From Eledone cirrhosa (taxonomy: Eukaryota > Mollusca > Cephalopoda > Octopoda > Eledonidae), in the NCBI GenBank assembly GCA_964016885.1, contig OZ024744.1, positions 65,507,496 to 65,571,495 of the forward strand: a stretch of 64,000 nucleotides of DNA. Direction: 5' to 3'. The stretch's first letter is position 1; the number at the start of each line of letters is the position of its first letter. This document shows positions 16,501 through 22,500 of this stretch, one piece after another. The notes under the pieces were generated by a model. That model saw only the letters and a program-made list of their open reading frames with translations. It searched no databases and was not told the DNA's origin. The position numbers were made by a program, and so were the translations under genes.

Positions 16501-19500
16501 TGAGAGGACCCTTCAGTTGTGTCAAAGACACAACCTGCCTAGTGTTGGTGATCTACATGATAAAAGCACCCAGTATAAACTGTAAAGTGTTGGTGTTAGG
16601 AATGGCATCCATCTATACAAAGCTTGCCAAACAAGGGGTTGGGAGGACCCTTTAGTTTGTGTCAAAAGGACAACTCCTGTGCATTTGGTAGAACATATTA
16701 CTAATGAGATGCAAACCCCTCAGCCTTCTAAGAAGTCAGTAGTCTCACTTCAGTACTGACTTGTCTCAAAATGCCCCACCCAACCCAGAGTGGCATGGAA
16801 AAGTGGATGTAAAAATGATATATTTTATTTCTCCATTTCATTTCCTTCCTTTTTCTCAAATCACTTTTATCTTGTGCACAATATTTCATTATTGTTATTG
16901 TTATTGTTATTATATCATGACTCATGCACTGTTTATTTTCCTGACATTTGTACATGATTCTATGTACTATACATGCACCTTTGATGAGTTGTAGTGCACC
17001 TGAGCACTGTACACAATAATTTCATTATTATTATTATTATTATCCTTGTCACATTAAACCACCTGAAACTGACCCCTATTTTACATATATTTTAAAGTGT
17101 TTATATTTATCTAAAAACCTATCATAATTTTATGGACGAACCTTTAAGTTATGTTCCAAAAACTAATTTAATGTTGAGAAAGTTAACTAAATCCTTCCAA
17201 ATTCTTGATTATTGTCAAAATCATAGGCAGTGAATTTCATTAGAAATATGGTAAATATATTCGTAGTATTAAAGCATGGGCAATATTATGAAAAGTTTTA
17301 GCCAAAATTAGTATTCATTTAATTTTTTATTTTGAATAAGTACCAGAAAATTTGAAAAAAATTAAAATTTTAATTATTTCATCTATGTAATATTACTTTT
17401 GCCACTGTGGGTATCACCATATATGGGCCCAAAATTACCAGTCATATGACTGGCGCCACTAAAACAGATGTGGCTGTTCAACTTGAGTGAAACTGCAGGG
17501 AGAAATTGGAGTCAAGACTCCCTTGAATAAAACCCCTAGGAAGGAAGGACACATTGAATAATATAATCCCAAGATGAAAATGGTTATGTCTGGAACACTG
17601 ACTATTAGACAGACAGATTGGTCAGGAATGATCTGGTGTTAAACAAGGAATGATCTGGTGTTAAACAAGAAATAAAAATAACTTACTGTTTCTTATATTC
17701 TCCCATTCAATTCCTTTGAACCAAGGATGATTCTTGAAATCTTCCAAACCTCCTTTACCAAACCGATCTTCAGCACTGCATATGAGTCGCCTCATGAGAT
17801 CTTTTGCCTCCGTTGTCACATCTCCATCATCAGGAAATTCAAAACGATTCTGCAAGAAAGGTAAAAAGACATTGAGAAAAGAAACTACAACACTAATGTT
17901 TCTGTCATATAGTGCTTTTGGGGAAGGATAATAAATATGGCAAGGCCAGCAAATTTGAGAAAAGGACAAAGTTGATTAACCCTTTAGCATTTAAACTAGC
18001 CATATCTGGCCAGAATTCTCACCTCTTTCTGTTCAAACCGATTGTAATTGGCCACTCGTATTGATATTAAGGTATTGTGCTCAAAATAAATAATATCAAA
18101 ATCTCAAATTCGATATGTGAAGTAAAGCCTTTACCGTGAAAATAAGTTAGTAAATATAGAGTAATGTAAATGATAAAGTGTTAAGATCAACCTCAGTACT
18201 TAATCAGTACTTCATTTTATCAAATCCAGATGGGTGAAAGTTGACCTTTGTGGGATTTGAACTCAAAATGTAAAGAGCCAGAACAAATACAGCCACAGCA
18301 TTTTTATCTAACACTACCATGGAGGCACATGGCTTAGTGGTTAGAGCATTGGCCTTGCAATCGAAAGGTTGTGAGTTCAATTCTCAGACCGGGTGATTTG
18401 TTGTTTCCTTGAGCAAGACTCTTTATTTCACATTGCTCCAGTTTACTCAGCTGTAGAGATGAGATGATAGGGACCCCTGTCCCTATCATTCCACTGCAAA
18501 GTGGTCGTGTAGGTGCCACAGCAAAAAAAAGCACCCAGCACTCACTGTAAATGAGGTTGGTGTTAGGAAGGGCATCCAGCTGTAGAAGTCAAGCCAGAAT
18601 CAGTTCCCGTCCCACCCTTGCAAGCAGGGAAAAAGCGGACATAAAATGGAATGATGATGATGACTACCAATTCTGCCAATGGTAATGCGAAAATACTGAA
18701 ATATAGATAAGGATTTTTTTCAACACGCTGGCCTGTATGTGTATGTGAGTGTGTGCATACATTTATATATACGAGAATATAAACACAAACGCATACAAAG
18801 ATACGCACTCACACAGATACGTTCACACAAATACAGTATAACAAATGGAACACCAGCCACTATTTTGCTATAGTTTTTCACCATCCTCTTTTTAACACAT
18901 ACACAGGACGGACAGACTGAAGTCGCTCAAATTTATATATAGATGCAAACTTGGACCTGGAGTTGCATTTCGTTGGTATTTTTGTCTTGTTGGTATTGTA
19001 GTCATGTTGAGGGATAATTTCTTATCACTAATATAGAGAAAGATTGCCACCAGAAAAAATAAATGAATTGTATTAAAAATAAAAAGAAAGAAAGAACACA
19101 GCTTTACTGAGTGTGTTGTATATCTTTGATTGCAGATAATGAAATTAAGTTCAAATTACCTGATGGTTCATGATCTTGCCATATGTTTCAACTAAGGATT
19201 CTGCGTAGAATGGTGTTTCACCATATAACATTTCATACATACATACACCTAGTGACCACCAATCACATTCTGGGCCATAACGACCATGACCGTCTTCCAT
19301 TGCCTGAAACAAATAAAAAATAAATAAATAAATAAATAAATAATATCCAGAAGATAACTAGGTGATCAAATTAGCAGCGGAGAGGGGGCTGTTCTGAAAG
19401 TACAGCAACCAGGGTAAGAACGGGATGGAAGAAGTTCAGGGAACTACTATCACTGCTAGCTACAAAAGGCTCTTCACTCAAAATGAATGGCAGACTGTAT

Positions 19501-22500
19501 GATGAGTGCATACAAACAGCAATGTTACATGGTAGTGAAACTTGGGCGCCGTGTGTAGAAGACTTGCGTAGATTAGAAAGAAATGAAGCTTGCATGCTCC
19601 GATGGATGTGTAATAGTAATATACGTGAACGGCAAAGCATAAACGAATCAAATGCTGTGTGCAGGAGAGGAGGTTACGTTGGTATGGACATGTGATGCGT
19701 ATGAAGGATGACAGCTGCATAAAAAGGTGCAGAGCACTAGAAGTCGATGGAATCCTTGGAGTGGGGAGACCTAAGAAGACCTGGAATGAGGTGATAAAAA
19801 CCGTCCTTGCCCAATTGCACCTCTCAAAAGCGATGACACAGGTCCGAGACCTCTGGCGTTACGCAGTAATTCAGAAGACCAGAGTTTCCACGGGTACAAG
19901 CTGAAGCCGAAACATATAGACAATATGACCCCATGCTTCTCCCACTAATGTGGTCTGGTAGGTGTCACGAGAAAAAGCACCCAGTCCACACTAAAGTGAT
20001 CATGTAGGTGCCATGGTAAAAAAAGCACCTAGTACTCACAGTAAATGAGGTTGGTGTTAGGAAGGGCATCCAGCTGTAGAAACCAAGCCAAAATCAGTCC
20101 TGTATGAGCAAGACATGGTCACCTGACCTGGCATTACCCACAACAGGACAACCTGTCTAATTCATGCTAGCGTGGAAACATTGACATAAAACGGTGACGA
20201 TGATGAGATATAGATATAGATATATACATACATACACAAACACACACACACAGTCACTTGCACAAATATATGCATCCATGCACAGTGCTTAGGCAATGTG
20301 TGTATACATTGCATGCGTGTATGCATGTAAGAGTACATCTGTACATGTATACATGCATACTGTAAAGGCTCAATTTGAAAGCTAGAAGCTCAGTTAAGCA
20401 GTTGGTTCTTCTGAAAATTATGAATGACATGATTAGATGAAATCCAATCACCTGCTGGTTGGTGAGCAAAACATTGAAACCTGTCCAGTAAAATATGGTG
20501 CATTCCAAATCATGATGTAGCATACTTTGTAATGAAATGAAGTATGTGATGGCGCAACAAACAAAACATTCACCATAACCATTTAAATTGGCCATACACA
20601 GCCAGAATTCTCTCACCTCTTTCTATTCAAACCAGCCGTAACCGGCCACTCGTACTTATGTTAAGGTATTGTTCTCAAAATAATATCAAAATCTCATAGA
20701 AGAGATATTATGCAAGATAATTATGTCAGGTAAAGCCTTTACTGTGAAAAGACAATACTATATATAGAGTAATCATCATCATCATCATCACCGTTTTACG
20801 TCCGTTCTTCCACGCTAGCATGGGTTAGACGGGTTGTCCTGTTGTGGGCAGTGTCTGGTCGGCTGACCATGCCTTGCTCATACAGGAACTGATCTGGCTT
20901 GATTTCTACAGCTGGATGCCCTTCCTAACACCAACCTCATTTACAGTGAGTGCTGGGTGCTTTTTCGTGGCGCCTACACGTCCACTTTACAGTGTGGGCT
21001 GGGTGCTTTTTTGCTGTGGCACCTCCACGGCCACCTTGCGGTGGAGGGGGGGGGGGGGGCATATTGTTTATATGCTTCAGCATGTACCCATGGGAGGTCG
21101 GGTACCCTGTATTACTGCGTGACGCCAGAAGTCACGGTCGTGTGTCATTGACTTTGAGAGGTGTAGTTGGGTAAGGTCGGCTTTTATCACCTCATCCCAA
21201 GTCATCTTGGGTCTCCCCACTCCGCGGTTTCCATCAACTTCTAGTGCTCTGCACCTTTTTATGCAGCTGTCATCCTTCATACGCATCACATGTCCATACC
21301 AGCGTAACCGCCTCTCCTGCACGCAGCATTGGATTCCTCTTATGCTCAGTCTCTCTCTCAATTCCTTTATGCTTTGTCGTTCACGTATATTACTGTTACA
21401 CATCCATCGGAGCATGCAGGCTTCGTTTCTCTCTAATCTACGTAAGTCTTCCACCTTCAGCGCCCAGGTCTCACTACCATGCAACATCGCTGTTCGGATA
21501 CACGCATCATACAGTCTGCCTTTCATTCTGAGGGAGAAGCCTTTTGCAGCTAGCAGTGGTAGTAGTTCCCTAAACTTCTTCCATCCCGTTCTTACCCTAG
21601 TTATTGTACTTTCTGAGCACCCACCTCCGTTGCTAATTCGGTCACCTAGGTAGCAGAAGCTGTCTACTGTTTCTACAGGGCCCTCCCAGAGATTGGTGGT
21701 ACTTGTTTCCTGTGGCTGTTTGCTTGCTGTTTCAGCACAGCTGCTGCATGTGAATCCTACATTCTTAATTAAGCTTCCTGAGATCCCGCTACATCTCTTG
21801 TGTACCCATTGTTTGCATTTGGGGCAGAGAATGGAGTTTCTACCTACACCTTTCCTACATACTGAGCAAGGCCATTTCCCTGAGGGGATCTGGGTTCTGT
21901 TTTCTCGTCTACTTACAAGGACCTTAGTCTTTGTCATGTTGACTTTGAGGCCCTTTCTCTCTAGTCCCTGCTTCCAGGTTTGGAATTTATTCTCTAGTTC
22001 TACCATAGATTCAGCTATGAGTGCGAGGTCATCAGCATACAGGAGTTCCCATGGGCATCCGGTCTTAAACTCCTCCGTTATTGCCTGCAGGACTATGATG
22101 AACAGGAGAGGGCTAAGAACAGAGCCCTGGTGGACCCCAACCTGTACGCTAAATTCCTTGCTATACTCATTGCCAATCCTAACTTTGCTGACTGCTCCCC
22201 TATACATGGCTTGTACCGCTTTCACAAGCCATTCATCTACTCCTAGTTTTCTAAGAGCCCAACAGATTACTGCACGTGGAACTCTGTCAAAGGCTTTCTC
22301 AAGGTCGACAAATGCCAAGTAGAGTGGCTTACTTTTAGCTAGGTACTTTTCCTGTAATTGCCTCACAAGGAAGAGGGCATCAGTGGTGCCTTTCCCTGGT
22401 ACAAACCCAAATTGCATCTCGTCTATATTCACCCGGTCCCTAATCAGCTGTGCTATAACTCTTTCTGTTACTTTCATGACCTGGTCCATCAACTTTATAC

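Follow-up and report, generated by a model that had tools for sequence, protein, structure and literature searches.

A long interspersed nuclear element (LINE) of RTE-like type and a family of short interspersed nuclear elements (SINEs) with tRNA-like heads were found to share a 3′ end in a 64,000-nt stretch of the Eledone cirrhosa genome (GenBank assembly GCA_964016885.1, contig OZ024744.1, positions 65,507,496 to 65,571,495 of the forward strand), called the window here and numbered from its first nucleotide. We propose, with a probability of about 0.55, that the two share this tail as a template-recognition signal for the reverse transcriptase (RT) of the LINE. The shared tail and the shared body upstream of it are real, and a LINE segment with the predicted hairpins P1 and P2 is absent from the three SINEs. 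A small hairpin in the tail, P3, is plausible, and the compensatory change that had been claimed for it is not established. We infer that the RNA folds into P3, that the RT binds this hairpin and that the SINEs are mobilised in this way. The shared signal would consist of P3, which an outer stem, P3b, may lengthen, then ~18 nt and then the GAT repeats, the presumed starting point of target-primed reverse transcription. Just upstream, the LINE possibly has a second, long hairpin, P1-P2, the sequence of which is missing in the SINEs. The SINE family would have been born when a tRNA-derived promoter was fused to the 3′ end of the LINE, and the LINE RT would copy it in trans.

The shared 3′ end was examined by comparing the SINEs with copies of the LINE. 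The original prediction had listed two tRNA-headed SINEs; both are present, and a third, unlisted, lies at ~51593-51268 on the minus strand. In the shared body, the three SINEs and three young LINE copies have 105-109 identical nucleotides of 113-116 aligned (93-95%), and in the tail the three SINEs and two young LINE copies have 30-34 identical of 42-43 (71-79%). GAT repeats close the LINE tail and all three SINE tails, and a tail match (E<0.1) lies within 260 nt downstream of 24 of the 29 body matches (E<0.001). These data support the claim that the LINE and the SINEs have in common a 3′ end closed by short repeats, as in published stringent pairs (PMC5135761, PMC4176376; citations are by PubMed Central number and refer to excerpts of the articles). 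The SINEs lack a 53-nt segment of the LINE that holds nearly all of P1-P2, the first 8 nt of which are present in 0/3 SINE copies, yet they retain P3 and the GAT repeats. All five P3 pairs are kept in the SINE tails at 59131 and 18606 and four of five in the third, and P3b keeps 4, 4 and 5 of its 5 pairs. Hand-typed forms (a 64-65-nt body with 64/64 matches and one gap, and a tail with 38/46) were dropped, the tail form being a composite, and the actual copies were used.

The head of the SINE at 58860 gave a borderline match to the Rfam tRNA model at 58859-58916 (29.1 bits against a cut-off of 29, E 0.055), and the tRNA-like heads of the other two SINEs were assigned by similarity. ARAGORN found no tRNA gene. 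The start of the SINE at 18331 is approximate, with ~10 nt further upstream in common with the copy at 51593. Target-site duplications longer than 7 nt were not found within ~50 nt on either side of the three SINEs, which is not conclusive. Between the tRNA head and the LINE-derived body, the SINEs have a long hairpin (GATAGGGAC..GTCCCTATC) at 18460-18500 and at the equivalent places in 51268-51593 and 58860-59185; its 42-nt form in the 58860 copy has an energy of -17.7 kcal/mol. Five more tRNA-like heads were seen at 2544 (-), 33690 (-), 35930 (+), 38367 (-) and 50809 (-). No GAT-repeat tail was found in the ~420 nt read downstream of each, and these heads may belong to different SINE families paired with different LINEs. 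The coordinates of all features are given in Table 1.

Table 1. Features of the LINE, the SINEs and the tail copies in the window (ORF, open reading frame; UTR, untranslated region)
Feature	Position	Strand	Description and basis
LINE ORF	21077..24199	-	1040 aa stop to stop; endonuclease, RT and PHD-type zinc finger; ORF list
LINE 3′ UTR	20772..21076	-	~49-nt repeat units, SINE-shared body, P1-P2, P3b-P3, GAT repeats; sequence, self-comparison
P1 5′ arm (predicted)	20882..20887	-	TCCTGT; RNAalifold with RIBOSUM scoring (not default), single-copy folds
P1 3′ arm (predicted)	20837..20842	-	ACAGGA; RNAalifold with RIBOSUM scoring (not default), single-copy folds
P2 hairpin (predicted)	20857..20868	-	GGTC-AGCC-GACC; RNAalifold, both scorings (default: 3 bp)
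Segment absent from three SINE copies	20832..20884	-	53 nt, nearly all of P1-P2; sequence comparison
P3b 5′ arm (predicted)	20827..20831	-	CGTCT, outer stem around P3; RNAalifold, RIBOSUM scoring only
P3 hairpin (predicted)	20810..20823	-	CCATG-CTAG-CGTGG, 5 bp and 4-nt loop; sequence, folds
P3b 3′ arm (predicted)	20799..20803	-	GGACG; RNAalifold, RIBOSUM scoring only
Terminal trinucleotide repeat of LINE	20772..20790	-	TGATGAT...; sequence
tRNA-headed SINE, LINE-type tail	18331..18663	+	P3 at 18616-18629, CCTTG-CAAG-CAGGG
tRNA-headed SINE	58860..59185	+	start approximate; P3 at 59141-59154
Third tRNA-headed SINE	51268..51593	-	start approximate; P3 at 51300-51313, outer C-G pair lost (A.A)
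Young LINE tail	46110..46164	-	P3 as at 20810
Young LINE tail	269..323	+	P3 as at 20810
Young LINE tail	15923..15977	+	P3 as at 20810
Older LINE tail	2823..2875	+	CCATGCTAGCATGG at 2832
Older LINE tail, second type	53966..54013	+	CCATGCTAGCATGG at 53975
Older LINE tail	7063..7110	-	P3 intact
Tail of another family	6189..6227	+	loop CA, CCATGCCAGCATGG at 6195
Solo tail	27627..27676	-	loop AA
Tail of further family	40735..40788	+	SINE-like U-G pair, loop TA, CTTTGCTAGCAGGG

A tail profile built from 10 copies gave 26 matches at E<0.001, the 10 included. The tails listed in the original prediction are real, and the tail is commoner than that list. All five P3 pairs are standard in 11 of 22 aligned tails. 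The 22-row alignment (A3) contained the 26 tails minus three young copies that were identical within the part aligned, minus 27676 and the 5′-truncated 63523, plus 14121. Seventeen copies of the LINE lineage were also aligned, and from these a 13-row alignment (A2; minus 269, 15923, 52015 and 29602) and 14-copy sets (minus 20833, 269 and 15923) were made; another alignment (A4) held 12 LINE tails. The ~49-nt unit of the LINE 3′ UTR forms tandem-repeat families in other copies too. A further repeat family, at 40480-40800 and 16380-16850, has a related tail, and its body contains a AAGGGTTGGGAGGACCCTT-like hairpin.

The hairpin strings quoted in the original prediction are present at the positions it gave, and their interpretation changed in several respects. 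A loop of 2 nt is too tight for RNA, and in the folds that predict P3 a CNAG loop of 4 nt is closed by 5 bp, in place of the 2-nt loop that had been drawn. The loop TT reported at 27657 is AA in the sense of the tail, because the minus strand carries that element (tail 27676-27627). The difference between GCGTGG in the LINE and GCATGG in older tails had been taken as compensatory and is a one-sided change, U-A to U-G. For the SINEs, a stem of 7 nt against 6 had been described; no bulge is needed in the ungapped form CCTTG-CAAG-CAGGG, in which one pair has changed from A-U to U-G. The bulged register (CCCTTGC/GCAGGG) was rejected in favour of the ungapped one, in which every base has its counterpart in the LINE and five pairs are kept. 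This A-U to U-G replacement is the single P3 pair changed on both sides between LINE and SINE, and the same change is found in the tail at 40735. With uniform substitution, two random changes from the old stem would keep all pairs in 7.4% of cases and three changes from the young stem in 3.3%. The retention of pairing between LINE and SINE is suggestive, not proof.

One alternative is that the RT reads the sequence of the tail and not its fold. The signal would then be the linear tail (an A run, a GGACGTTAAA-like stretch and the GAT repeats), perhaps with the body, and P3 would be a near-palindromic stretch inherited by descent, with incidental pairing. We regard this as possible, although rather doubtful. 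Survival of 5, 5 and 4 of the 5 pairs in the SINEs despite changes in the stem, at a chance of 0.03-0.07, argues against it, and so do the column-shuffle tests of the fold described below.

LINE-lineage tails were aligned over 101 columns, folded with RNAalifold and compared with column shuffles, using both RIBOSUM and default scoring. RIBOSUM scoring predicted P1 (7 bp) with an inner stem and P2, followed by P3 enclosed in P3b, and the fold was more stable than all shuffles for 17 copies (z -4.8, 0/300) and for 14 copies (z -4.2, 0/300). The fold predicted for the 22 tails drawn from several families also had P3b and P3 (z -3.9, 0/300). With default scoring, only P3 and a 3-bp P2 were predicted, with z -3.7 for 17 copies (5/300) and z -2.8 for 14 copies (10/300). 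Taken together, the two scorings therefore leave P3 as the longest helix held under both in the LINE copies, and P1 is a prediction of RIBOSUM scoring and single-copy folds. The claim of a structured tail held for the LINE alignment, which folds better than its column shuffles by a wide margin with RIBOSUM and by a modest one with default scoring; it failed for the tails of all families, where default scoring gave no structure. Consensus sequences of three source types gave z -5.4 with RIBOSUM scoring (0/500). Among ~42-nt tails folded singly, z was -3.1 (7110), -3.3 (53966), -2.4 (6189), -2.3 (27676), -1.9 (young LINE) and -0.9 (2823), about 0 for 15245 and 57741 and positive for 40735 and 14121. 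In the young element, one of 95 overlapping windows was more structured than the tail. The signal in the tail appears to be one of stability rather than covariation, and the evidence for a folded LINE tail is moderate and depends on the scoring.

Several results in this paragraph and the next weigh against a fold that serves as a shared signal, and many of them would suit an RT that reads the linear tail. The body is matched more exactly than the tail between LINE and SINE. P3 alone is not beyond chance: the element at 20779-24199 has 19 hairpins with 5 bp and a 4-nt loop, among which P3 is 8th by energy, and the window has 1628 such hairpins on both strands. Default RNAalifold predicted no pairs on the all-family alignment, and neither P1 nor P3b was found under default scoring. 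The first consensus fold, of 17 untrimmed copies with default scoring, reached -3.7 kcal/mol and contained P3 and fragments, and the same alignment reached -25.5 with RIBOSUM. After that fold the alignment was trimmed and redone and the scoring was switched to RIBOSUM; it is the scoring that makes the difference. The SINE tails of 42 nt had z of -0.6 to -1.7, and SINE ends of 93-96 nt had z of +0.1 to +0.8, no better than shuffles. Single copies of the LINE lineage were uneven, from +0.1 (63390) to -4.6 (2823) against dinucleotide shuffles. Finally, no related DNA in other species, and hence no cross-species tails, was found with the body pattern and the RT protein against viral contigs or with an alignment of 30 RT proteins against genome and viral contigs.

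Covariation was examined by simple shuffling, which ignores relatedness, and by a phylogeny-preserving test in which substitutions were reshuffled along the tree. Standard pairs filled 88.2% of P3 cells in the 22 tails, compared to 81.7 ± 1.8% after simple shuffling (0/500) and 30-52% in slid registers; the covariation score was reached by 2/500 shuffles and the number of cells changed on both sides by 7/500. The count of P3 pairs changed on both sides was matched or beaten by 207/500. With the 13-row LINE alignment, the corresponding figures were 25/500 for paired cells and 11/500 for the covariation score; the two-sided pair count was matched or beaten in 101/500 shuffles, and the register slid by -3 had 7 two-sided pairs against 5 in the structure. 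In the phylogeny-preserving test on the all-family alignment, the best P3 pairs had E ~16 over all column pairs and E ~0.2 when only the 10 proposed pairs were counted, so these data do not support the claim of covariation. The best structure pair in the LINE alignment had E ~130. The original prediction had itself named covariation no higher than the phylogenetic background as the outcome that would speak against it, and this is what was found, at low power; compensatory change, which it took as evidence, comes down to one two-sided pair between LINE and SINE. Power is low because copies decay neutrally after insertion, so that only the few changes in source genes are informative: 128 of 181 inferred substitutions fall on terminal branches, and few source genes are represented in 64 kb. 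A comparison of four source families, in which 10/10 pairs vary, 4 are kept in all and 6 are broken somewhere, also speaks against pairing kept in all families; it was not relied on, the SINE row and the fourth-family row having been composed by hand and the latter partly guessed.

The distribution of changes over the tail also suits an RT that reads sequence. Mean inferred changes per column were 2.5 in the stem, 2.0 in the loop and 3.1 elsewhere, and the columns for which no change was inferred are partly outside the stem (26, 27, 37 and 41). Another possible explanation is common descent with neutral decay, in which the tail is only a copied 3′ end and its structure is that of one ancestral sequence that happened to fold. 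The many terminal substitutions, as expected of dead copies, and the few independent source lineages fit this explanation, which we nevertheless consider improbable. In the consensuses of the three source types, 9 pairs vary and 7 of them remain paired (shuffle mean 4.2), including a two-sided change in P1 from G-C to A-U between two old types, yet 45/500 shuffles reach 7. Two pairs there are changed on both sides, a number reached by 185/500 shuffles. P3 pairing in SINEs that lack the upstream segment likewise speaks against decay alone.

Covariance models offered a control on register. With a model trained on 12 LINE tails, the true register gained +1.0, +3.4 and +8.5 bits over a slid one in the three SINE tails. 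Among 18 held-out matches, the true register scored better in 11, with a mean of +1.3 bits that is not significant (p 0.16 and 0.21), and this belongs with the points against a shared fold. The held-out set left out 7462 (12.9 vs 9.0), 11898 (10.9 vs 11.7), other weak matches and matches to the palindrome on the reverse strand. A gain of 15-17 bits for a structure model over a sequence-only model on the SINE tails was set aside as evidence because the training tails gain 12-15 bits and the scoring modes of the two models differ.

The upstream hairpin could also be the functional fold. On that account P1-P2 would serve the LINE alone, in translation, packaging or RNA stability, and P3 would be a mere spacer. 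With RIBOSUM scoring of 14 copies, the upstream part indeed gave a stronger signal (z -5.05) than the P3 region (z -2.96, 0/300 but only just). Default scoring loses P1 and reverses the order, with z -1.05 (11/300) upstream and z -2.95 (8/300) for the P3 region, and the SINEs, for which copying is just as necessary, have P3 and almost none of P1-P2. A function of P1-P2 alone is improbable as well, slightly more so than neutral decay. A bipartite tail, with P1-P2 confined to the LINE and P3b-P3 shared, is a somewhat better but still unlikely arrangement. The SINE family would have been born when the LINE RT skipped P1-P2 while copying; P3b-P3 and the GAT repeats would therefore be the minimal signal in trans, and P1-P2 would act in cis for the LINE. 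A bipartite tail fits two observations: the SINEs lack the 53-nt segment that holds nearly all of P1-P2, and the older LINE copy at 2823 has lost P2 and keeps a long P1 stem upstream of its tail (z -4.6 over 79 nt). Against it, P1 was predicted across copies with RIBOSUM scoring only. The weaker controls under default scoring lowered our estimates for a shared P3 signal, for a bipartite tail and for P1-P2 as the functional fold, and raised those for a linear signal and for neutral decay.

The RT that would read P3 is part of a protein with Pfam matches to RVT_1 (1.2e-31), Exo_endo_phos (3.3e-08) and PHD (4e-06), and its relatives of solved structure include human LINE-1 ORF2p (3.8e-32) and R2 (3.2e-23). 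An APE-type endonuclease and an RT within one ORF, as assigned by Pfam, are the layout of the RTE clade, and a short 3′ UTR, here ~300 nt, that ends in GAT trinucleotide repeats is a trait of that clade. RTE-clade LINEs are not known to have a separate upstream ORF1, and no further minus-strand ORF of at least 120 aa was found in 24199-28900, upstream of the LINE ORF. The name RTE-like was given for this architecture, which resembles that of published RTE elements (PMC3272025, PMC9115989). Searches with the RT protein gave 436 relatives at E<=1e-20 among 7993 scored candidates, with at most 55% identity among the 120 matches listed. One relative (P0081) is labelled as a Terriglobia bacterium from a metagenome-assembled genome and is probably eukaryotic contamination. 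The PHD-type zinc finger follows the RT domain at ORF residues 777-820, and C777, C780, C791, C794, H799, C802, C817 and C820 are invariant in the window protein and 29 of the 120 listed relatives, which were aligned. This finger is a candidate contact to nucleic acid or chromatin. Upstream of the LINE ORF, ~400 nt are duplicated, with one array of 25-nt units at both 24536-24588 and 24944-24996, and the duplicated stretch 24536-24996 resembles tandem promoter monomers.

By analogy, the pair most likely fits the known stringent class of LINEs and SINEs with shared tails, a mechanism already established for other LINEs. Tail stem-loops have been reported in several clades, including RTE elements in mammals, and transposition of the eel element UnaL2 needs both the tail stem-loop and the terminal repeats (PMC5135761). 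UnaL2 and UnaSINE1, of the L2 clade, share a 3′ tail in which a stem-loop is followed by short repeats, as is proposed here (PMC5135761). In UnaL2 the loop is GGAUA and the repeats are TGTAA, whereas the tail in the window has a predicted CNAG loop and GAT repeats, and belongs to an RTE-like LINE. The zebrafish elements ZfL2-1 and ZfL2-2, also of the L2 clade, have a tail stem-loop too; the region between endonuclease and RT of ZfL2 binds this stem-loop, with general recognition of the stem and specific recognition of the loop (PMC4176376). In the pair described here, the loop differs at one position, UA in the LINE and AA in the SINEs, which the RT would have to tolerate. For plant L1 elements, compensatory changes have been reported in shared LINE/SINE tails (PMC3747384).

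Among RTE elements, HaRTE1/HaSE1 of Helicoverpa, Bov-B/Bov-tA and the tobacco TS pair likewise combine a tRNA-headed SINE with the 3′ end of an RTE LINE (PMC3272025, PMC3747384). The terminal repeats are TGA in HaRTE1 and TTG in the TS pair (PMC3272025, PMC3747384), compared to GAT here. Compared by description, the window's pair differs from these in probably coming from another host group and in the possible two-hairpin tail of the LINE. In the octopus element RTE-2_OV, too, a single ORF encodes endonuclease and RT, and microsatellite sequence makes up most of the 3′ UTR (PMC9115989). As described, its ORF is reported as 1109 aa with UTRs of ~600 nt (PMC9115989), against 1040 aa here. Expansion of RTE-BovB LINEs and of SINEs has been reported in octopuses (PMC8967140). 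In Octopus vulgaris, SINEs make up 11.6% of the genome, and 893 of 900 recently active SINE families are listed as unclassified (PMC13282606). Ceph-SINE of squid and cuttlefish, mentioned in PMC3272025, is a cephalopod SINE with a central Ceph-domain. Excerpts of the open-licence literature in PubMed Central gave no description of the tail and no name for the LINE/SINE pair, which may already have been catalogued. The partner LINE and the shared tail point to the enzyme that probably copies the SINE family, and the tail offers a chance to separate requirements in cis from those in trans.

The window also contains part of a host protein kinase at 28900-29298 on the minus strand (Pfam Pkinase, 4.4e-19), which we take to be most like the MRCK/CDC42BP kinases.

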